Part shown: in pieces, positions 971 through 16,571 of the stretch
How positions within the stretch are numbered: the first letter of the stretch is position 1
Layout: each line of letters starts with the position of its first letter
NCBI GenBank assembly: GCA_937885735.1
Contig: CALABN010000264.1
Location: forward strand, 1 to 16,883
Source: an uncultured Bacteroidota bacterium
GTDB lineage: Bacteria; Bacteroidota; Bacteroidia; Bacteroidales; SZUA-534
DNA: 16,883 nt
Reading direction: 5' to 3'
Position numbers and translations under genes: made by a program
Notes under the pieces: model-generated
The model's input: the letters and a program-made list of their open reading frames with translations, nothing else
Database searches by the model: none
Told to the model about the DNA's origin: nothing

Positions 971-3900
971 ATGAAGATAAAGTATAAACATCAGCAGTTC
1001 CAAACCGAAGCAGTCCGCTCCGTGGTGGATGTCTTCAACGGGCAGCCTAAGAGTGATGGCCTGAGCGACCATATTGTCGATCCAGGAAAGGATAGAACGC
1101 TCATACAGACGAAAGGATTCGGCAACAAGAGCGTCGTCCTCACTTCTGATACTATTTGTGAGAATGTTCGTGCTATTCAGATGGAGCAAGGACTGAAGCC
1201 TGTAGATGCGCTTCAAGAATTAGCGGACGTAGGTATGGCGTTCACAATCGAGATGGAGACAGGTACGGGCAAGACCTACACCTATATCAAGACCATGTAT
1301 GAACTCAATGCTCGGTATGGCTGGACGAAGTTTGTTGTCATTGTTCCCAGTATAGCCATCCGTGAAGGCGTTTTGAAGAGTTTCGAAAGTATGCAGGAAC
1401 ACTTCGCTCAAGAGTACGACGGCAAACGAATGCAGTATTTTGTCTATGACTCAAAGCAACTCAGTAAGATTGATGCTTTTGCCAGCGATGCGGGTATGCA
1501 CGTCATGATTATCAACACACAGGCCTTCAACTCTTCGTTTGACGAAGCGAAAAGTACTGGCAAAAAAGCAGACAAGGCAGCCCGTATCATCTTTGACAAA
1601 CGTGATGAGTTTGGCAGCCGACGCCCTATCGATGTGCTCAGCAATTGCCATCCTATTATGATTATAGATGAGCCGCAGAGCGTGTTGGGAACAAATAAAG
1701 GGAATAAGACCCGCCAAGGTTTGGCAAGTTTCCAACCACTTTTTACACTGCTATATAGTGCCACGCACAGGAAGGAGGATATCTACAATATGGTGTACCG
1801 ACTGGATGCCATAGATGCCTATAACTTGAAACTGGTGAAGAAAATAGAGGTGAAAGGTATCACTCAGATTGGTACTACAGCCACACACGGATATGTCTAT
1901 CTGGAAAAAATCATCATCAGTCAAGGTAATCCGCAAGCCCGCATCAGCTTTGATGAGAAGACGGCTACAGGCATCAAGCAGATAAGCAAGGTGGCTGGCG
2001 AAGGCTTTGACCTTTATGAACAAAGCAAAGGACTGAAAGAATATCAAGATAATTATAAGATTGAGCGTATTGATGGACTTAATGGCGAAGTCCGTTTTAT
2101 TAATGGCTTAGTCTTGCATGAGGGTGAGTCTGTAGGTTCTGCTAACGAAGATTATCTGCGCCGTATTCAGATTCGAGAGACAATCCGCACTCATTTGGAA
2201 CGCGAACGTCAGTTGTTCGGCAAGAAGATTAAAGTGCTCAGCCTGTTTTTCATAGACCATGTTGATAGTTATCGTTTGTATGAAGATGGCACAACGAGGA
2301 ATGGCAAATTTGCCGAGATGTTTGAAGAAGAATATATCAACGTCTGTAATGAACTGCAGCCTACATTCGGTGATGAAGCATATCTGAAGTATCTCTCTGA
2401 CCCTAAGAATGCCTCCACTAAGGTGCATCAAGGTTATTTCGCCATGGATAAAAAAGGGAAAGCAGTTGACTCTGGTAATAAAGAAGGAGAGAATGAAGAG
2501 CGAGCCTTCGACCTTATTATGAGGAACAAAGAAAGGCTTCTGTCGTTCGATGAGCCTGTCCGTTTCATCTTCTCGCACTCTGCTTTGAAGGAAGGTTGGG
2601 ATAATCCTAATGTATTTCAAATATGCACTTTGAAGGATACAGGTAATGAGATGAAGAAGCGACAAGAGGTCGGACGTGGTATGCGGCTGTGTGTAAACCA
2701 AAATGGCGAACGCCAAGATGCCGAGGTGTTAGGCCAGGAACATGTCTTCGACACCAATGTTCTTACAGTTATTGCCAGCGAAAGCTATGAGAAGTTTGCA
2801 ACGACGCTCCAAACTGAAATGGCGAAAGCCTGTGCGGATCGTCCTATCATAATCACACCGAATCTCTTTGAAGGCAAGGTATATACAAAGCCAGATGGTA
2901 CAAATGGCAAATTTGACCTCAGTCAGGCACGCACCATCTATAATACTCTTATTCGAAAAGGCTATGTAAATGATGATGGCGCATTGACATCGAAATATCA
3001 TGATGATAAACGAAATGGCAAACTTGACTTTGATGGTGTAAGTAACTTGAAAGATGGCATTATTGCTGCCCTCAATACAGTCTTTGATCCATCGTCGATT
3101 AAACTAGAGGATGCACGAAAGGCTAAGGCTGCCACATTCCAAAAGTCGAACTTTGACAAGAAGGAATTTCAGGAACTTTGGAAGAGTATCAATATGCGGA
3201 CATACTATCAAGTGGACTTTCAATCTTCGGAACTCGTGGGGAAGGCTAAAAAAGCCTTGAACGATAATTTGAAAGTGTCAGAGGTGCGTATTGTTGTTCA
3301 GAGCGGCTCTCTGGATGATGTGCGTGATAAAGAGTCTCTCACGGCAGGAACGGCTATGACGGCAGGAAGTAGTCGTACAATATATGTGACAGAGGCTTTG
3401 GGAGAAGTAAAATATGACCTTATTGGTAAGTTGGTATCGGCTACAGGACTAACTCGTAAAACCATCGTGGAAATCTTGAAGGGAATCGAGCCCCGTACTT
3501 TTGAATTGTTTAAAGCCAATCCAGAGGAATTTATCATTAAGGCTGGTTTGATTATTAATGATTGCAAGGCTCTTTCTGTTATTGAACATATTGAATATAA
3601 GAAGATGGACGGTACATTCTCAACAGATATTTTCACAGAGAATATGCTTCGTGGAAAGCTTGGTGTCAATGCTATCGAATCAGCGAAGTCGCTCTACGAC
3701 CTTGTTGTGCTGGACAGCATGGGTACAGAGAAAAGCTTTGCTGAGTCCTTGGAGCAAGAAGATGATGTGGTGGTATATACTAAATTGCCAAGTGGGTTCT
3801 ATATCAACACACCTATGGGGAAATATAATCCTGACTGGGCAGTTGCGTTTAAGGAAGGAACTGTGAAACATGTCTATTTCGTTGCAGAAACTAAAGGGAA

Positions 3901-4048
3901 TGACTTGCAGACCAGCCAACTTAGAGGCTCTGAGGAAAGCAAGATTGAATGTGCTCGTCGTCACTTCAAGGCTATAAGTGATAATAATGGATATATCTAT
4001 GATGTGGCGAGAGACTATAGTTCTTTGTATGATATTGTCACAAAATGA
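971..4048 (+). CDS. res: Type III restriction endonuclease subunit (Res), DEAD-type helicase plus PD-(D/E)XK nuclease
   Basis: This 1025-residue protein has the full Res layout and the usual length. Res uses ATP hydrolysis to communicate along DNA between two Mod-bound sites and then cuts; it works in a complex with Mod. Motifs seen: Walker A ETGTGKT (residues 96-102), Walker B IIDEPQ (231-236), motif III YSATH (262-266), SALKEGWDNP (about 537-546), motif VI QEVGRGMR (565-572), and a C-terminal nuclease site PD (954-955) with ETK (973-975), giving the PD-x17-ETK spacing of the PD-(D/E)XK fold. All key residues are present, so it should be active. The ATG at 971 lies 4 bases after the mod stop, implying translational coupling; no Shine-Dalgarno is visible. 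Codon use and G+C look lower than in parE-parC, consistent with transfer of the mod-res module. Confidence 0.95.
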   Translation: MKIKYKHQQFQTEAVRSVVDVFNGQPKSDGLSDHIVDPGKDRTLIQTKGFGNKSVVLTSDTICENVRAIQMEQGLKPVDALQELADVGMAFTIEMETGTGKTYTYIKTMYELNARYGWTKFVVIVPSIAIREGVLKSFESMQEHFAQEYDGKRMQYFVYDSKQLSKIDAFASDAGMHVMIINTQAFNSSFDEAKSTGKKADKAARIIFDKRDEFGSRRPIDVLSNCHPIMIIDEPQSVLGTNKGNKTRQGLASFQPLFTLLYSATHRKEDIYNMVYRLDAIDAYNLKLVKKIEVKGITQIGTTATHGYVYLEKIIISQGNPQARISFDEKTATGIKQISKVAGEGFDLYEQSKGLKEYQDNYKIERIDGLNGEVRFINGLVLHEGESVGSANEDYLRRIQIRETIRTHLERERQLFGKKIKVLSLFFIDHVDSYRLYEDGTTRNGKFAEMFEEEYINVCNELQPTFGDEAYLKYLSDPKNASTKVHQGYFAMDKKGKAVDSGNKEGENEERAFDLIMRNKERLLSFDEPVRFIFSHSALKEGWDNPNVFQICTLKDTGNEMKKRQEVGRGMRLCVNQNGERQDAEVLGQEHVFDTNVLTVIASESYEKFATTLQTEMAKACADRPIIITPNLFEGKVYTKPDGTNGKFDLSQARTIYNTLIRKGYVNDDGALTSKYHDDKRNGKLDFDGVSNLKDGIIAALNTVFDPSSIKLEDARKAKAATFQKSNFDKKEFQELWKSINMRTYYQVDFQSSELVGKAKKALNDNLKVSEVRIVVQSGSLDDVRDKESLTAGTAMTAGSSRTIYVTEALGEVKYDLIGKLVSATGLTRKTIVEILKGIEPRTFELFKANPEEFIIKAGLIINDCKALSVIEHIEYKKMDGTFSTDIFTENMLRGKLGVNAIESAKSLYDLVVLDSMGTEKSFAESLEQEDDVVVYTKLPSGFYINTPMGKYNPDWAVAFKEGTVKHVYFVAETKGNDLQTSQLRGSEESKIECARRHFKAISDNNGYIYDVARDYSSLYDIVTK

Positions 4049-4348: not shown

Positions 4349-4384
4349 AAAAAAAAAGTCCAGCGGAAACCCGTTGGACTTTTT
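4349..4384 (-). terminator. Intrinsic terminator after trpB, bidirectional in form
   Basis: The arms GTCCAGCGG (4358-4366) and CCGTTGGAC (4371-4379) form a 9-bp stem with one G-T wobble and an AAAC loop. It is flanked by nine A on the left (4349-4357) and five T on the right (4380-4384), so U-runs follow the hairpin in both directions. It lies 22 bases past the trpB stop and can also stop transcripts coming from res. Confidence 0.85.
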
Positions 4385-4406
4385 CATATCACCAGAGGTG
4401 TTGCGA

Positions 4407-5774
4407 TTACTTGATAATCTGTTCAAGCTTTGATGTTGCTGCGTCAATGTCTTCCTGTGGAAGGTCGAAATTGCGCAAGTCGCCTTGAATGTATTGGTCG
4501 TAGGCGGTCATGTCAATCAAACCGTGGCCAGAAAGGTTGAACAGAATTGTCTTTTGCTTGCCTTCTTCCTTGCATTTCTTCGCTTCGCGGATTGCAGATG
4601 CAATGGCGTGAGCCGATTCAGGTGCAGGAATGATGCCTTCAGCTTGTGCGAACAGTGTTGCGGCCTCAAATGATTCAAGTTGAGGAATATCAATACCATA
4701 CATGTAGCCGTCCTTTATCAGCTGGCTGACAATAGTGCCAGCTCCGTGGAACCGCAGTCCTCCAGCGTGAATGTGTGCAGGAGCGAAAGAGTGTCCAAGC
4801 GTGTACATAGGCAGAAGCGGAGTGTAGCCAGCCTCGTCGCCAAAGTCATATTGGAAAACACCGCGAGTCAGTTTTGGGCAAGCGGCAGGTTCTGCAGCTA
4901 TGAATTCGGTTTTCTTGCCTTCAAGCATTGTATGGCGCATGAATGGGAATGTTATTCCGCCAAAGTTTGAGCCACCGCCAAAGCATCCTATCACAATGTC
5001 GGGATATTCGCCAGCCATTTCCATTTGCTTCTCGGCTTCCAGTCCGATAATTGTCTGGTGCAGAGTTACATGGTTGAGGAAGCTTCCCAGCACGTACTTG
5101 CAGTTAGGTGTTTGCCTAGCCAGCTCCACAGCTTCGGAAATGGCAGTGCCCAGGCTTCCCTGATAAGTAGGGTTGACTGTAAGAATGTCCTTTCCTGCTC
5201 TTGTGCTCATACTTGGCGATGCAATCACCTGTGCGCCAAACGTCTGCATTATTGAGCGTCGGTACGGCTTTTGGTGATAGCTGACTTTTACCATATATAC
5301 AGCCAGTTCCAGGCCGAATATCTTGGCGGCGTATGACAATGCTGTTCCCCATTGGCCAGCGCCTGTCTCGGTAGTTATGTTGGTTATGCCTTCCTGCTTG
5401 CAATAGTAGGCTTGTGCCAATGCCGAATTCAGCTTGTGCGAACCAATTGGGCTAACGCTCTCATTTTTGAAGTAGATGTGAGCTGGAGTGTCAAGTGCCT
5501 TCTCAAGTCCGTAGGCGCGTACAAGAGGCGTTGAACGGTAGTTCTTGTATTGCTCGCGGACAGGCTCCGGAATGTCAATCCATGTGTTTGTGCAGTCCAA
5601 TTCCTGCTCTGAGCAGGCGCGGTTGAAAATCTGCGACAGTTCGTCAACCGTGATAGGCTCCTTCGTCTTTGGATTCAGGATTGGCAGTGGCTTGTTTTTC
5701 ATGTCAGCCACAATATTGTACCATTGTGTAGGTATTTCCTTCTCTGTCAAGAAGAATCGTTTTTGCTTTTCCAT
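4407..5774 (-). CDS. trpB: Tryptophan synthase beta chain, TrpB2 type (stand-alone)
   Basis: This 455-residue cytoplasmic PLP enzyme should condense indole with L-serine to form L-tryptophan. Seen: the PLP-lysine motif GSHKLNSA with Lys114, the catalytic ETGAGQWG segment (136-143, Glu136), and the phosphate-binding loop GGGSN (266-270). The extra N-terminal region, the length and the ETGAGQWG form fit the TrpB2 (TrpB-like) subfamily rather than canonical TrpB1, which is about 400 residues and pairs with TrpA. No trpA or other trp gene is adjacent, so it may work as an indole-salvage enzyme or as a second TrpB; this is inference. The ATG at 5774 follows an A-rich stretch without Shine-Dalgarno. 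Expression is very probably controlled by the Trp-codon leader and attenuator upstream (5833-5955). It has its own terminator and looks monocistronic. Confidence 0.93.
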   Translation of the reverse strand: MEKQKRFFLTEKEIPTQWYNIVADMKNKPLPILNPKTKEPITVDELSQIFNRACSEQELDCTNTWIDIPEPVREQYKNYRSTPLVRAYGLEKALDTPAHIYFKNESVSPIGSHKLNSALAQAYYCKQEGITNITTETGAGQWGTALSYAAKIFGLELAVYMVKVSYHQKPYRRSIMQTFGAQVIASPSMSTRAGKDILTVNPTYQGSLGTAISEAVELARQTPNCKYVLGSFLNHVTLHQTIIGLEAEKQMEMAGEYPDIVIGCFGGGSNFGGITFPFMRHTMLEGKKTEFIAAEPAACPKLTRGVFQYDFGDEAGYTPLLPMYTLGHSFAPAHIHAGGLRFHGAGTIVSQLIKDGYMYGIDIPQLESFEAATLFAQAEGIIPAPESAHAIASAIREAKKCKEEGKQKTILFNLSGHGLIDMTAYDQYIQGDLRNFDLPQEDIDAATSKLEQIIK

Positions 5775-5832: not shown

Positions 5833-5866
5833 AAAAAAACCCGCAAGTGGAGTGCTTGCGGGTTTT
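5833..5866 (-). terminator. Attenuator terminator in the trpB leader
   Basis: In the minus-strand RNA, AAAACCCGCAAG (from 5866 to 5855) pairs with CTTGCGGGTTTT (5847 to 5836) as a perfect 12-bp stem, with a 7-base loop CACTCCA. Seven U follow the GGG (5839-5833). It lies between the Trp-rich leader peptide and the trpB start, with no gene ending just upstream except that leader, so it is a premature terminator. Confidence 0.88.
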
Positions 5867-5907
5867 ATATTTTATTACAACAAACCTATGGGCTAATCCT
5901 CCACTTG
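5844..5907 (-). promoter_or_regulatory. Trp attenuator: antiterminator pairing between leader and terminator loop/3' arm
   Basis: In the minus-strand RNA, CAAGTGGAG at 5907-5899 (inside the leader codons for Gln, Val and Glu) is exactly complementary over 9 bases to CTCCACTTG at 5852-5844. That second segment spans the terminator loop and the start of its 3' arm, so the two structures exclude each other. A ribosome stalled on the Trp codons (5931-5923) would stop 15 bases short of 5907, leaving the antiterminator free to form and trpB on. A ribosome reaching the TAG at 5895-5893 would cover 5907-5899, letting the terminator fold and switching trpB off. Sequence and spacing are seen; the mechanism is inferred from classic amino-acid attenuators. 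Confidence 0.8.
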
Positions 5908-5955
5908 AATATCGGATTGGCGCCACCACCATTGTTTGTTGTTCATGTTGTTCAT
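5893..5955 (-). CDS. trpL: Trp leader peptide with three tandem Trp codons
   Basis: This 20-codon frame encodes MNNMNNKQWWWRQSDIQVED and ends in TAG. Three consecutive TGG codons lie at 5931-5923. Translation could instead start at the second ATG (5946), giving 17 residues; the choice does not affect the Trp run. It is too short to be listed by usual gene callers. Its position 27 bases before a strong terminator and upstream of a tryptophan biosynthetic gene is what defines an attenuator leader peptide: its job is to sense charged tRNA-Trp by ribosome speed, and the peptide itself probably has no function. Three Trp in a row by chance in so short a frame, exactly before a Trp gene, is very unlikely. 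Confidence 0.85.
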   Translation of the reverse strand: MNNMNNKQWWWRQSDIQVED

Positions 5956-6009
5956 TTCAGTCGTCTTGTTATTAAAACGATGCGAAATAAATATATTTCG
6001 GTGAATGCG

Positions 6010-6112: not shown

Positions 6113-8533
6113 TTACTGTTTTATGAAAATCAGGTTTCGATAATCAGAGCCGGTTATGGTTTTGATTGTGTAAATGCCTTTTGGCAAGGTTGTTATGTCG
6201 ATTTCGCCATTCGAAAGGCCGGAAGTGAGCAATGTGCCTGCAATGTTGAAAATCTCATAATTGAAAACGCCGTCAATTCCGTTGATGTTCAGCGTGTTGC
6301 TAGCCGGGTTCGGGTAAAGTCCGATTCTGTTGGCAGAAGAATCGTTGATGCCGGATATCTTCTTGCTAGGGTCAACTTCGCCTAAAATGGTGATTGTTCC
6401 GAATGAAGCGGCGCTCTGCCATGCGTTGTCGGATGTCGAGTTCCATGCAATCTTGTTGTCGCGGCTGCTGCCATCATCGTCGTCGTTAATCATGAATTCA
6501 AATCCAATTGCCATGTTTGATTGCACGTCGCATTTGATTGTTGTCCACGGAATTCGTATTTCGGCAACGTATCCATGTTGGTTGGGTGCCACTACGAATT
6601 CGATGCCGTTGGTCTTGTATGAAGTTGGAATGGTCTCGATGTGTGACGGACTGTCGTAGTTGAACGACAGTTGCACGTCGTCGTTGTCGTAGGACCCGCC
6701 TTTTGAGTTGTTGCAGTCGAAGTACAGTTCTACGTTGTCGTTTTCATAGACATCGCCACCGTCGTTGACGAGTTCATTGTCGGTCACGTCGCAAAGTGCG
6801 TAAATGTAGTTTTCGTCCCAAAGCAACTGAACATATCCGCTACAGTCGTTGCTGCCGTTGCCTCCGTTTCCAGTCAGTACGTTGTTGGCGTAAAGTTTCA
6901 CGGCATTGGCCCATGCCTCGTCAATCTTTCCATCGATGGCGGGGGCAGTCTCGGCCTTTTCGACACCAATTATTGGTGTCTTGACGGTGATGGTAATGGT
7001 GTTCGATTTTTTGTATAGTCCGGTGGAGTCGGTGGCAACGGCATATACATTATAAGTGCCGGATTCCATTCCGCTCAAGTTGTATTCGTAAGGTTGTGTG
7101 TAGGCGGTTTTTACCTTTATTCCGTTAACAAAGAATTCAACTTTTTCCACGTCGTTGTTAATGTCTTCAACATCAACTTTGACATTGATAGACTCAGGAA
7201 GTTCGTCGGCGGAGTATGTGATGCTGCCTTGTGGCTCTGTGATTTTTGCTTTTGGCTGATTAGGGTTCGCAGGCTTCCAACCTTCGTACCAGCGTTCGTA
7301 GTTGACGGTGTCCATTTTCGCATAGTTGCTGCCGTCGGTGATGGTGCGAATCATCGTGTTGACGGTTGTGTCGCCGAAGATGAATTTCTGCGCAAATGCT
7401 TTCACTGCTTCATTTTCGGCATTGGTGGCGCTGCAGTGTCCGTGTCCGCCGTCGATTACGAATCCGAATCGGTCTTCGATTCCGAATGTCTCATAGATTT
7501 TTTCGGCGGCGCGGCAAGTTATGTATGTTGAAAAGTCGCCAAGCCATTCCATGTCGGTGTTGCCCAAAACCAGAAGCGCACGTGGCGCGCACATAGCCAG
7601 AATCTCGTGGTGATCGTGAGGCAGAATGTCTTGCTTCCCGCTGAATTGCTGCATGCTTGTCATAAACCACGAATAGTTGGTGTTGCCGATGCCTTCAACG
7701 CTCTTTTTGATTTGCTTGCTTGTATAGTCGATGGTTCGCCATGCACTTGCGCCACCGCCACCAGATTCCTGCACAACGGTGAGAGCCACGCGCTCGTCGT
7801 ATGCTCCGGCAAACATTGCCATCTTGCCAGCATAGGAGCATCCGCTCAAGGCTATATGTTCAAGGTCGACGTTAAGTTGTCCTTTCTCTTTCACAATCTC
7901 AAGTCCGTCAATCAGTCGGCTGACACCCCACGCCCATTTGCTATAGTTGCCGTTGTCATAAAGTTCGGGATAAAGGACATTGAATGGGTCGTTTGGATAA
8001 CGCTTGCTGTCGGATCCGTAGGTTGCCACTTGGTCGTGGCTGAAGGACATTGAAATACATCCGTTGAATAACGATGATAGGCTCGACATCCCCATTGCGA
8101 TGAATACAGGGTGCGGACCGTCGCCCGAAGGAATTGTCAGATTGGAAGTCAGAGTGGCTATGTTTTCGCCAACTCTTACGGTCACGGTCAGCACGCCGTT
8201 TTCAAAATCGGCGTCAACCTGTTCGCGGTCAACTTCGGGTTTTTCGCCAATCTCGTAATACTCCACTTCCGATTTTATCTCGTTGCGGCGTTTCTCCCAA
8301 TCGGCGAAATCTTCCGAGCGCCCTGAGCCGTCGGACCATGCAAAAGGGTCGGGTAGCATTGCGTAACTTTCCATTTGGTCTGTTGCTAGTTTTGCCGGTT
8401 TTGCAAAACTGGCCCCCGAATTTTCGACTGAAAATACATTCGGGATGATCGTGCTTGACACTTGCGACTCGGCATTGACGCCAATGGCCACGGAGCCGAA
8501 AATGGCAGTGAATAAAAGTGATCTTGCGTTCAT
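6113..8533 (-). CDS. Secreted CE15-like (glucuronoyl esterase family) esterase with Ig-like, CBM9-like and type IX sorting domains
   Basis: Domains of the 806-residue protein in order: a signal peptide (cleavage likely after Ala21, VNA-ES); an alpha/beta hydrolase of the CE15 type (about 50-395) with nucleophile motif GCSYAGK (231-237, Ser233), an acidic residue in VQESGGGG (Glu256) and a candidate catalytic His in GGHGHCS (362-368); a bacterial Ig-like domain (about 428-518); a CBM9/DOMON-like domain (about 525-715, starting with the APAIDGKIDEAW signature); and a C-terminal Por/T9SS type A sorting domain (about 730-806, with YPNPASNTL). CE15 enzymes hydrolyse esters between xylan glucuronic acid and lignin. 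The usual signature is GCSRxGK, whereas here the Arg is Tyr234, so the substrate or mechanism may differ. The protein should be exported and surface-anchored or released through T9SS. It is flanked by its own terminator; no polysaccharide-utilisation genes are adjacent. Confidence 0.85.
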   Translation of the reverse strand: MNARSLLFTAIFGSVAIGVNAESQVSSTIIPNVFSVENSGASFAKPAKLATDQMESYAMLPDPFAWSDGSGRSEDFADWEKRRNEIKSEVEYYEIGEKPEVDREQVDADFENGVLTVTVRVGENIATLTSNLTIPSGDGPHPVFIAMGMSSLSSLFNGCISMSFSHDQVATYGSDSKRYPNDPFNVLYPELYDNGNYSKWAWGVSRLIDGLEIVKEKGQLNVDLEHIALSGCSYAGKMAMFAGAYDERVALTVVQESGGGGASAWRTIDYTSKQIKKSVEGIGNTNYSWFMTSMQQFSGKQDILPHDHHEILAMCAPRALLVLGNTDMEWLGDFSTYITCRAAEKIYETFGIEDRFGFVIDGGHGHCSATNAENEAVKAFAQKFIFGDTTVNTMIRTITDGSNYAKMDTVNYERWYEGWKPANPNQPKAKITEPQGSITYSADELPESINVKVDVEDINNDVEKVEFFVNGIKVKTAYTQPYEYNLSGMESGTYNVYAVATDSTGLYKKSNTITITVKTPIIGVEKAETAPAIDGKIDEAWANAVKLYANNVLTGNGGNGSNDCSGYVQLLWDENYIYALCDVTDNELVNDGGDVYENDNVELYFDCNNSKGGSYDNDDVQLSFNYDSPSHIETIPTSYKTNGIEFVVAPNQHGYVAEIRIPWTTIKCDVQSNMAIGFEFMINDDDDGSSRDNKIAWNSTSDNAWQSAASFGTITILGEVDPSKKISGINDSSANRIGLYPNPASNTLNINGIDGVFNYEIFNIAGTLLTSGLSNGEIDITTLPKGIYTIKTITGSDYRNLIFIKQ

Positions 8534-15135: not shown

Positions 15136-15145
15136 AAAATTGATT

Positions 15146-16018
15146 ATGAGCAAAATCTCTACGCGATTCTATAACGACCAGGAAGTGCGTGCCATTTGGA
15201 ACGATGAAAAATCCGAGTGGTTCTTCTCTGTGCTCGACGTAGTGGGAGTGCTTAATAATCAGACCGATTACGAAAAAAACAGGAACTATTGGAAGTATCT
15301 GAAGGCTAAATTGAAGAAGGAAGGAAGTCAGTTGGTTAGTGTCACTACCCAACTGAAACTTTTGGCTTCCGATGGGAAACGATATAATACAGATGTTATT
15401 GATTTTAATGGAGTTGTAGAACTTGCAAAGTCTTTCCCAAACAACAAGGCAAATCAGTTCCTAGATTGGTTTACATACAGCGACGACACCATCGACGGCA
15501 AAAGTCGCAAGAAGGCCTACACGCTATTCGAGAGCGAGTTTATTGACAATATCGAGGTGGGCACAGTAAAAGGCTTGCAACAGATTCATTCATACCTGTT
15601 TGGTGGCTTGTACGATTTTGCAGGCAAAATTCGAACAAAGACAATTTCCAAAGGCGGATTTACATTCTGTCTTGCCCAATATCTTGAACAAACGCTAATG
15701 GACATCGAGCGTATGCCCGAAAACACTTTCGAGCAGATTGCCGACAAATATGTCGAGATGAACGTGGCTCATCCATTTATGGAGGGAAACGGCCGTAGCA
15801 CACGCATTTGGCTCGATTTGATTCTGAAAAAGAACCTGAAAAAATGCATCGATTGGAGCAGGATAGGCAAGTACGATTATCTGCACGCAATGGAAATCAG
15901 TCCTGCAAATAGCGCGCCAATAAAGTCGTTGCTGAAGACTGCCCTGACCGAAAAAATCGATGACCGCGAAATATTTTTGAAAGGCATTGATTATTCATAT
16001 TATTACGAAGAAATTTGA
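15146..16018 (+). CDS. Fic-domain protein AMP-transferase with N-terminal Bro-N-like domain and C-terminal inhibitory motif
   Basis: The protein has 290 residues from the ATG at 15146; a TTG 6 bases earlier is a less likely start. Residues 1 to about 105 resemble a Bro-N domain, found in phage antirepressors and BRO proteins ([12 protein letters not shown] near 25-36). The rest is a Fic domain with the complete motif [12 protein letters not shown] (209-220), including catalytic His209 and the phosphate-binding Asn/Gly/Arg. Near the C terminus SYYYEE (284-289) fits the class III inhibitory motif (S/T)xxxE(G/N) except for its last residue. The catalytic His to Glu288 distance is 79 residues, the same as I recall for Neisseria meningitidis Fic (His107, Glu186). 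It should transfer AMP (or another nucleotide moiety) to a protein target and be autoinhibited. It lies 10 bases after parC, and Fic toxins are known to modify GyrB/ParE. G+C is low in part (43 of 120 at 15361-15480), hinting at acquisition. Confidence 0.9.
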
Positions 16019-16061: not shown

Positions 16062-16571
16062 ATGCTGATTTATCTGATTGGTTATATGGGCGCTGGCAAA
16101 ACCACTTACGGCAAGCGCCTGGCACACGACATCAACTACAAGTTCATCGACCTTGACCAAAAAATCGAAGCCGATTTCGGAAAAACCATTTCCGAGATTT
16201 TCGCCGAGAAAGGCGAATCGGAGTTCCGCAAGATTGAGCGCGATGCAATGATGCAGACGTTCGGCCTCGAAAACACAATAGTGGCCACAGGCGGAGGCAC
16301 ACCGTGCTTCTTCGACAATATGGAGCAACTCAACGCACACGGCGCCACATTGTACATCGAATTGTCGCCCAAAAGCCTGGTGTGGAATCTTCTCAACTCA
16401 CATAAAGACAGGCCATTGTTGCACAATAAGACCTATGAGGAACTTGTCGCATACGTCGAGTCGACATTGCAGAAGCGCCTGCCATTCTACACGCAGGCCA
16501 AGTATGTGGTTGACGGCATCGGCATCACTTCGCAGAAAATGATTGACGCGCTCAAAGACTGCAAGTTATGA
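16062..16571 (+). CDS. aroK: Shikimate kinase
   Basis: This 169-residue cytoplasmic enzyme phosphorylates shikimate to shikimate-3-phosphate with ATP, step five of the route to chorismate and aromatic amino acids. Seen: Walker A GYMGAGKT (7-14), shikimate-binding IDLD with Asp30 and Asp32, FRKIER with Arg56, the glycine loop GGG (77-79), and the lid motif KDRPLL with Arg117. The length is standard. It begins 43 bases after fic, a short gap in which I see nothing special. It ends in an ATGA overlap with ispD, pointing to translational coupling. Whether aroK belongs to the parE operon or has its own weak promoter in the 43-base gap is not clear. Confidence 0.96.
   Translation: MLIYLIGYMGAGKTTYGKRLAHDINYKFIDLDQKIEADFGKTISEIFAEKGESEFRKIERDAMMQTFGLENTIVATGGGTPCFFDNMEQLNAHGATLYIELSPKSLVWNLLNSHKDRPLLHNKTYEELVAYVESTLQKRLPFYTQAKYVVDGIGITSQKMIDALKDCKL

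Follow-up and report, generated by a model that had tools for sequence, protein, structure and literature searches.

A putative tryptophan attenuator preceding a lone trpB2 gene of Bacteroidales, and related leaders at other trp genes

The leader of the proteobacterial trp operon (Rfam family RF00513, Trp_leader) is the classic tryptophan attenuator; in E. coli, the 5' arm of the terminator serves as its segment 3. An attenuator survey published by Vitreschak and colleagues in 2004 reportedly touched upon Bacteroidetes as well. The family nearest to the locus presented here is RF01692 (Bacteroid-trp), which Rfam describes as "Bacteroidete tryptophan peptide leader RNA" and which PMC2864571 includes in its Table 1. 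The two share the phylum, a leader frame with Trp codons, a terminator and a trp gene downstream.

Excerpts of PMC1262725 describe candidate attenuators with Trp leader peptides and terminators in Actinobacteria, a different phylum, including a C. diphtheriae operon named trpB2A, where "trpB2" may stand for the TrpB2 class or merely for a second gene copy. Within Bacteroidota, the texts of PMC9723704 (Flavobacterium psychrophilum) and PMC7366714 (Bacteroides thetaiotaomicron) compare short 5'-region frames with attenuation leaders, those of the former lying before amino acid operons; the word "tryptophan" does not occur in the main text of either, and neither a Trp leader nor TrpB2 is named there. 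The "trpB motif" RF04312, introduced as a riboswitch candidate in an excerpt of PMC11109978, also combines a terminator with an antiterminator and sometimes precedes trpB, but it belongs to Firmicutes and Fusobacteria. The kind of attenuator described below is already known (RF01692, RF00513). TrpB2 as its recurrent target was not found in print, and no account of a Trp leader before TrpB2 in Bacteroidota was found in the open-licence literature, as represented by titles, abstract openings and excerpts, with subscription journals thinly covered.

Organization of the trpB2 leader region

The window, that is the whole analysed stretch of 16,883 nucleotides, carries on its minus strand the trpB2 gene and the upstream elements collected in Table 1. 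The original prediction had named a lone TrpB2 as the target, and profile searches agree: the product scores 598.2 bits against TIGR01415 (cut-off 518.85), which places it in the TrpB2 class, and 688 bits against NF009057 (cut-off 366). It also matches PF00291, with 6hul_B, 4qys_B and 6hte_B as the top-scoring solved chains. The gene upstream of the leader ends in its own terminator-like hairpin (6077-6061); taken with the hairpin behind trpB2 (4385-4352), this suggests that the trpB2 transcript is probably a single-gene one.

Table 1. Elements of the trpB2 locus in the window
Feature	Positions	Strand	Basis
trpB2 (455 aa), encoding a stand-alone beta chain of tryptophan synthase, TrpB2 class	4407..5774	-	profiles
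Terminator-like hairpin with T-tract behind trpB2	4352..4385	-	folding, z -3.54
Leader peptide frame MNNMNNKQWWWRQSDIQVED, 20 codons, ATG 5955, stop TAG 5895-5893	5893..5955	-	read from sequence
Putative sensor: three adjacent Trp codons TGGTGGTGG	5923..5931	-	read from sequence; Trp runs recur in relatives
Putative antiterminator strand, segment 2, CAAGTGGAG, end of leader frame	5899..5907	-	pairing listing and swap test
Putative segment 3 CTCCACTTG, target of the antiterminator strand, covering five bases of the loop and the first four of the terminator 3' arm	5844..5852	-	
Putative anti-antiterminator hairpin 1:2, 5918-5914 AATCC with 5899-5895 GGATT	5895..5918	-	MFE fold
Predicted intrinsic terminator 5866-5836, 12 bp, loop 7 nt, T-tract to 5833	5833..5866	-	folding
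Weak Bacteroidales-type -7 element TTATTTCG	5983..5990	-	by eye

The leader of 20 codons, the 12-bp terminator and the 9-base complementarity between leader and terminator are present exactly as originally predicted. CAAGTGGAG pairs with CTCCACTTG over all nine bases, with neither gap nor wobble. The 5' strand of hairpin 1:2 starts four bases past the Trp codons, and the hairpin overlaps the antiterminator strand. By eye, the position of TTATTTCG resembles that of better TAnnTTTG-like sites before several homologous leaders, a consensus that we take to be the Bacteroidales-type -7 element.

The 123-nt stretch folds with -39.7 kcal/mol, compared with a mean of -25.3 for shuffled sequences (z -4.75), and the terminator alone departs further from its shuffles (z -7.33). 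When the 296 nt upstream of trpB2 were shuffled, neither a leader frame with WWW (5000 dinucleotide shuffles) nor a terminator of 11 bp or more (1000 shuffles) ever appeared. Of 20,000 shuffled versions of the 47-nt leader segment, 42 matched the terminator exactly over 9 bases, so that the match by itself is only moderately rare.

The window stays below the cut-offs of both RF01692 and RF00513. RF01692 gave no match, either at its gathering threshold (49 bits) or up to E 10 in a local scan. RF00513, which follows the same logic, gave a full-length match that scores 35.5 bits (E 9.3e-6, 361 bases searched), below its cut-off of 41. In the E. coli model, the 5' arm of the terminator is taken and the target is the trp operon, whereas in the window the pairing takes the loop and the 3' arm and the target is trpB2.

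Other genes of the window were assigned by profile. A secreted glucuronyl-esterase-like protein with a CBM9-like domain and a T9SS sorting tail (6113-8533, minus strand; PF22244, PF06452, PF18962) is of a type found in plant-fibre degraders. Shikimate kinase (16062-16571, plus strand; PF01202), encoded by an aromatic-pathway gene, lies on the strand opposite to trpB2 and 10 kb from it. A type III restriction-modification pair (127-966 and 971-4048, plus strand) consists of a DNA methylase (PF01555) and a restriction subunit (PF04851, PF19778), and a Fic protein adenylyltransferase (15140-16018, plus strand; NF046029) directly follows two topoisomerase subunit genes.

Recurrence of the leader and conservation of its pairing

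The best 80 of at least 590 TrpB2 protein matches, the window not counted, served as the homologue set. Within 500 nt, 24 of these 80 loci have a short frame with clustered Trp codons. One of them (L028) was removed, its frame lying in DNA that reads by eye as an upstream coding frame, with no terminator detected by script; 23 of the best 80 loci thus retain a Trp-run leader. Their records are titled Salinivirgaceae, Paludibacteraceae/Paludibacter, Tannerella, Dysgonomonas, Prevotellaceae, Bacteroidaceae, or merely Bacteroidales/Bacteroidetes. The remaining 57 of the best 80, including every locus titled Bacteroides or Parabacteroides, have no such leader. The leader peptides are diverse and keep the Trp run (WWWRQSEIKVED, RWWRRF, WRWLDLIVV, WWWWQILS, WWWQNSRFQ). 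Under a stricter rule, by which the frame must contain WW, be no longer than 30 aa and lie between genes, such frames precede 16 of 77 trpB2 genes, that of the window scanned too, versus 5 of 468 other genes among the loci listed. A genome-wide search for TGGTGGTGG was of no use, since it returned 32 to 242 matches per genome on both strands, about as many as the reversed control.

Terminators accompany the leaders. Among the loci listed, a strictly defined terminator within 350 nt was found at 17 of 24 leader loci, window included, versus 2 of 57 others; for one of the 17 (L018) the hairpin found is a different one, further upstream. A laxer script found a terminator at 23 of the 24, window included. 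The last locus (L049) was kept as a leader on the basis of a hairpin and a 9-base pairing seen by eye. At L015, leader and terminator lie unusually far upstream, about 300 nt before trpB2, with about 245 nt of unexplained DNA between.

In a tree of 80 TrpB2 rows (L030 was omitted, its frame breaking off), the window falls inside a well-supported set of 17 rows, 14 of which have leaders, counting the window. The leader label requires 11 gains or losses, of which at least seven are forced by well-supported branches; with so many changes, its apparent history fits a single origin with losses as well as it fits repeated gain.

Pairing was compared in 37 leaders, namely 23 of the 24 at TrpB2 loci (window included, L049 left out) and 14 at trpB1 loci, taking for each the best match between the second half of the leader and the terminator. 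The matched letters differ and the complementarity is kept, as in GTGGAG:CTCCAC, ATGGAGG:CCTCCAT, TGGGAGG:CCTCCCA, CAAGGGA:TCCCTTG, TCGTGAG:CTCACGA and GGTAAAC:GTTTACC. Because MAFFT loses the register of segment 3, conservation of the antiterminator was judged by swapping terminators between leaders in place of counting covariation. Own terminators scored 699.5 versus 521 (sd 20) for swapped ones over all 37 leaders, 255 versus 172 (sd 12) over 13 hand-picked unlike leaders, and 178.5 versus 119 (sd 10) over nine hand-picked unlike TrpB2 leaders; in each case none of 20,000 permutations reached the observed value. Single leaders failed, the own terminator ranking 30th of 37 (L088) or 17th (L094); it ranked 10th in L012 and 7th to 9th in four others, and some of these leaders have letters common to many others. 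The paired target takes in loop bases in 36 of the 37 leaders and leans towards the 3' arm in 23, towards the 5' arm in 10, all at TrpB2 loci, and towards neither in four, with the arms hinging on the hairpin chosen by the script. In a Tannerella/Paludibacter group (L016, L017, L023, L073), WRW stands in place of WWW and the antiterminator would grip the 5' arm and loop, closer to the E. coli model.

For the other two helices, 12 window-type leaders could be aligned. In the 1:2 helix and terminator together, 96.6% of cells are paired, versus 39.5-58.6% when the rows are slid, and 19 cells are changed on both sides, where shuffles give 6.0; the number of further pair types (14) does not exceed that in shuffles (14.8). 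In the 1:2 hairpin of the 11 distinct rows, 96.3% of cells are paired, with changes on both sides in just one of five pairs. The structure was derived from the same, related rows, and both the paired-cell and the both-side counts are flattered by this. On the swap test, the mutually exclusive antiterminator pairing is kept across relatives. The comparison of TrpB2 homologues suggested with the original prediction has thus come out in its favour: Trp runs recur in 23 of the best 80 loci, and pairing persists while letters change.

Leaders of this type are not restricted to trpB2. Among the matches listed, trpB1 was over cut-off in 18 of the 23 leader genomes. Seventeen of these 18 loci were counted, L098 being omitted with its trpB1 cut at a contig end, and 14 of the 17 have a Trp-run leader with terminator. 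In the other three (L085-L087) no leader stands directly before trpB1; an IGPS gene lies upstream, and trpB1 comes behind other trp genes. The original prediction had called such attenuators classic for proteobacterial trp operons; they are not confined there, given RF01692 in Bacteroidetes and these 14 loci.

A covariance model, R1, was built from 12 TrpB2 leaders only and run on 295 Bacteroidales genomes at E 0.001, where it matched 52. Thirty loci were taken from the matches; by tblastn, 19 are trp loci (trpB2 4, of which two in training genomes, trpB1 12, trpE 3), and 11 have neither trpB2, trpB1 nor trpE. A Trp-run frame is present in 16 of the 30, all within the 19 trp loci. Two of the loci (L129, L130) represent new TrpB2 leaders, with leader, terminator and antiterminator match recognized by eye. 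Sequence comparison thus shows the leader, its predicted pairing alternatives, their conservation and the presence of like leaders on trpB1 and trpE operons.

RF01692 reaches its cut-off at two of the 14 leader-bearing trpB1 loci (L089, L090) and, of the 12 TrpB2 leaders searched among the 23, at one (L080, 49.2 versus 49 bits). In the 295 Bacteroidales genomes it gives 26 matches in 15 genomes: 20 before trpB1 (L119 in part), five before trpE-type frames, one at a contig end and none before TrpB2. These counts suggest that RF01692 misses many Trp leaders of Bacteroidales, and Rfam coverage there looks thin. The trpB1 loci with Trp leaders are L081-L084 and L088-L097, of which 12 of 14 fall below the RF01692 cut-off. 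RF01692 matches with Trp-run leaders before trpE-type frames, and not before trpB1, are L113, L120, L122, L123 and L124, the frame being assigned by profile for L113 and by likeness for the other four.

Proposed mechanism of attenuation

We propose that the stretch is very probably a ribosome-mediated Trp attenuator that precedes trpB2 on what looks like a transcript of this gene only. When Trp is abundant, the ribosome would reach the stop codon and mask 5907-5899; the terminator would then form and transcription stop near 5833. With Trp short, the ribosome would stall on the Trp codons at 5931-5923 and open the hairpin 5918-5914:5899-5895. The freed 5907-5899 could grip the emerging loop and 3' arm of the terminator, so that RNA polymerase would proceed into trpB2; this grip would act while those bases exit RNA polymerase. 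Without translation, the RNA would settle into hairpin 1:2 and the terminator. Termination, read-through and the response to Trp are what we infer for this attenuator from its structure.

Folding of the growing RNA was modelled for 11 of the 37 leaders. The ribosome was assumed to cover the RNA from 16 nt behind the A-site codon to 12 nt beyond it, and RNA polymerase to hide 8 nt. Under these assumptions, the antiterminator precedes the terminator in all 11 leaders when the ribosome is stalled at Trp, and it is absent in 10 of 11 when the ribosome is at the stop codon, the exception being L005, in which it is predicted to form even then. With no ribosome, 7 of 11 never form the antiterminator, and four, window included, form it for a few bases and then the terminator. 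In the window, the modelled stall delays the terminator, which appears at a transcript length of 125-128 in place of 121, a difference close to the length of the T-tract. Once the window's leader RNA is complete, its predicted minimum again contains the terminator even with a stalled ribosome, so any read-through would have to be kinetic.

Two other readings of the same stretch dispense with the sensing of Trp by a ribosome. It might, together with its terminator, be a riboswitch that binds a ligand or a leader that binds a protein, in which case the Trp codons would be incidental, and RF04312 does match the window weakly; its 24.7 bits are, however, far below the cut-off of 59. Moreover, the Trp runs last while the surrounding RNA is rewritten and the peptide context varies, which is hardly compatible with an aptamer, and we consider such a leader very improbable. 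An ordinary intergenic terminator with a chance reading frame could be suspected from the position of the stretch between two genes of one strand and from the frequency of the 9-base match in shuffles, but the upstream gene has its own hairpin, and Trp-run frames with matched terminators recur at 23 of the best 80 loci. The combination of leader, terminator and pairing, with its conservation, is beyond chance, and a chance frame is likewise very improbable.

Possible roles of TrpB2 in tryptophan supply

As far as we know, there is no settled account of what TrpB2 does physiologically next to a complete trp operon. The original prediction had read both a response to Trp starvation and a possible part in indole salvage from the leader. 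The former is what the leader itself points to; for the latter, the argument comes from pathway genes and from the excerpted account in PMC11535334. There, BT_RS23500 of B. thetaiotaomicron, 59% identical to Thermotoga TrpB2, is reported to aid an E. coli trpA mutant only next to wild-type E. coli, which the authors credit to indole; this complementation suggests that Bacteroides TrpB2 uses indole. PMC11085991 cites studies of TrpB1 and TrpB2 of T. kodakarensis in indole salvage.

Among the matches listed, trpA was found in 17 of the 23 leader genomes, and trpB1, IGPS (trpC) and trpD in 18 each. Five of the 23 (L005, L015, L017, L038, L080) have no trpA, trpB1, IGPS or trpD over cut-off among these matches; a TrpE-like match is absent in three of the five and weak in two, the TIGR00564 cut-off being no guide to trpE, as the clear TrpE of one genome (G002) scores below it. 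The trp genes mostly form one operon, so that in a draft genome one assembly gap might be enough to hide all of them. Two of the five, L017 and L080, are not titled MAG, which speaks for true pathway loss and does not prove it. The leader as a marker of pathway loss was rejected: among the matches listed, trpD is missing in 5 of 23 leader genomes and in 9 of 49 others.

TrpB2 may make Trp from indole either in salvage or in recapture beside the trp operon; with trpB1 present in 18 of the 23 leader genomes, roles other than salvage are possible as well. A working Trp attenuator could accordingly control a TrpB2 that does not serve the uptake of outside indole but de novo synthesis, by recovering indole that escapes from TrpA, or some other reaction linked to Trp. 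The joint presence of trpB1 and trpD in those 18 genomes, among the matches listed, agrees with such a role, as do the like leaders at 14 of 17 trpB1 loci, by which trpB1 and trpB2 would be induced together. In the five genomes of the 23 in which trpA, trpB1, IGPS and trpD were not found among the matches listed, TrpB2 would lack a supply of indole from within the cell, and we consider a purely internal role possible but less likely. TrpB2 is likely to serve indole salvage that is controlled by Trp, on account of the pathway genes not found in 5 of the 23 and of the published complementation, not of the leader.

A Trp-starvation switch of its own, kept despite sequence turnover, ties trpB2 to the supply of Trp. 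The genomes in which TrpB2 alone was found (5 of 23, among the matches listed) make indole salvage directly testable. We would give an even chance to a broader proposal, in which TrpB2 of many Bacteroidales is a separate indole-capture unit controlled by Trp starvation, with an attenuator whose evolution is separate from that of the trp operon leader. This switch would turn on a high-affinity enzyme that draws indole from gut or rumen communities, and where the pathway was lost, switch and gene together would be the sole remnant of Trp synthesis. Within gut communities indole serves as a signal, and a Trp-controlled indole sink would therefore matter for cross-feeding.
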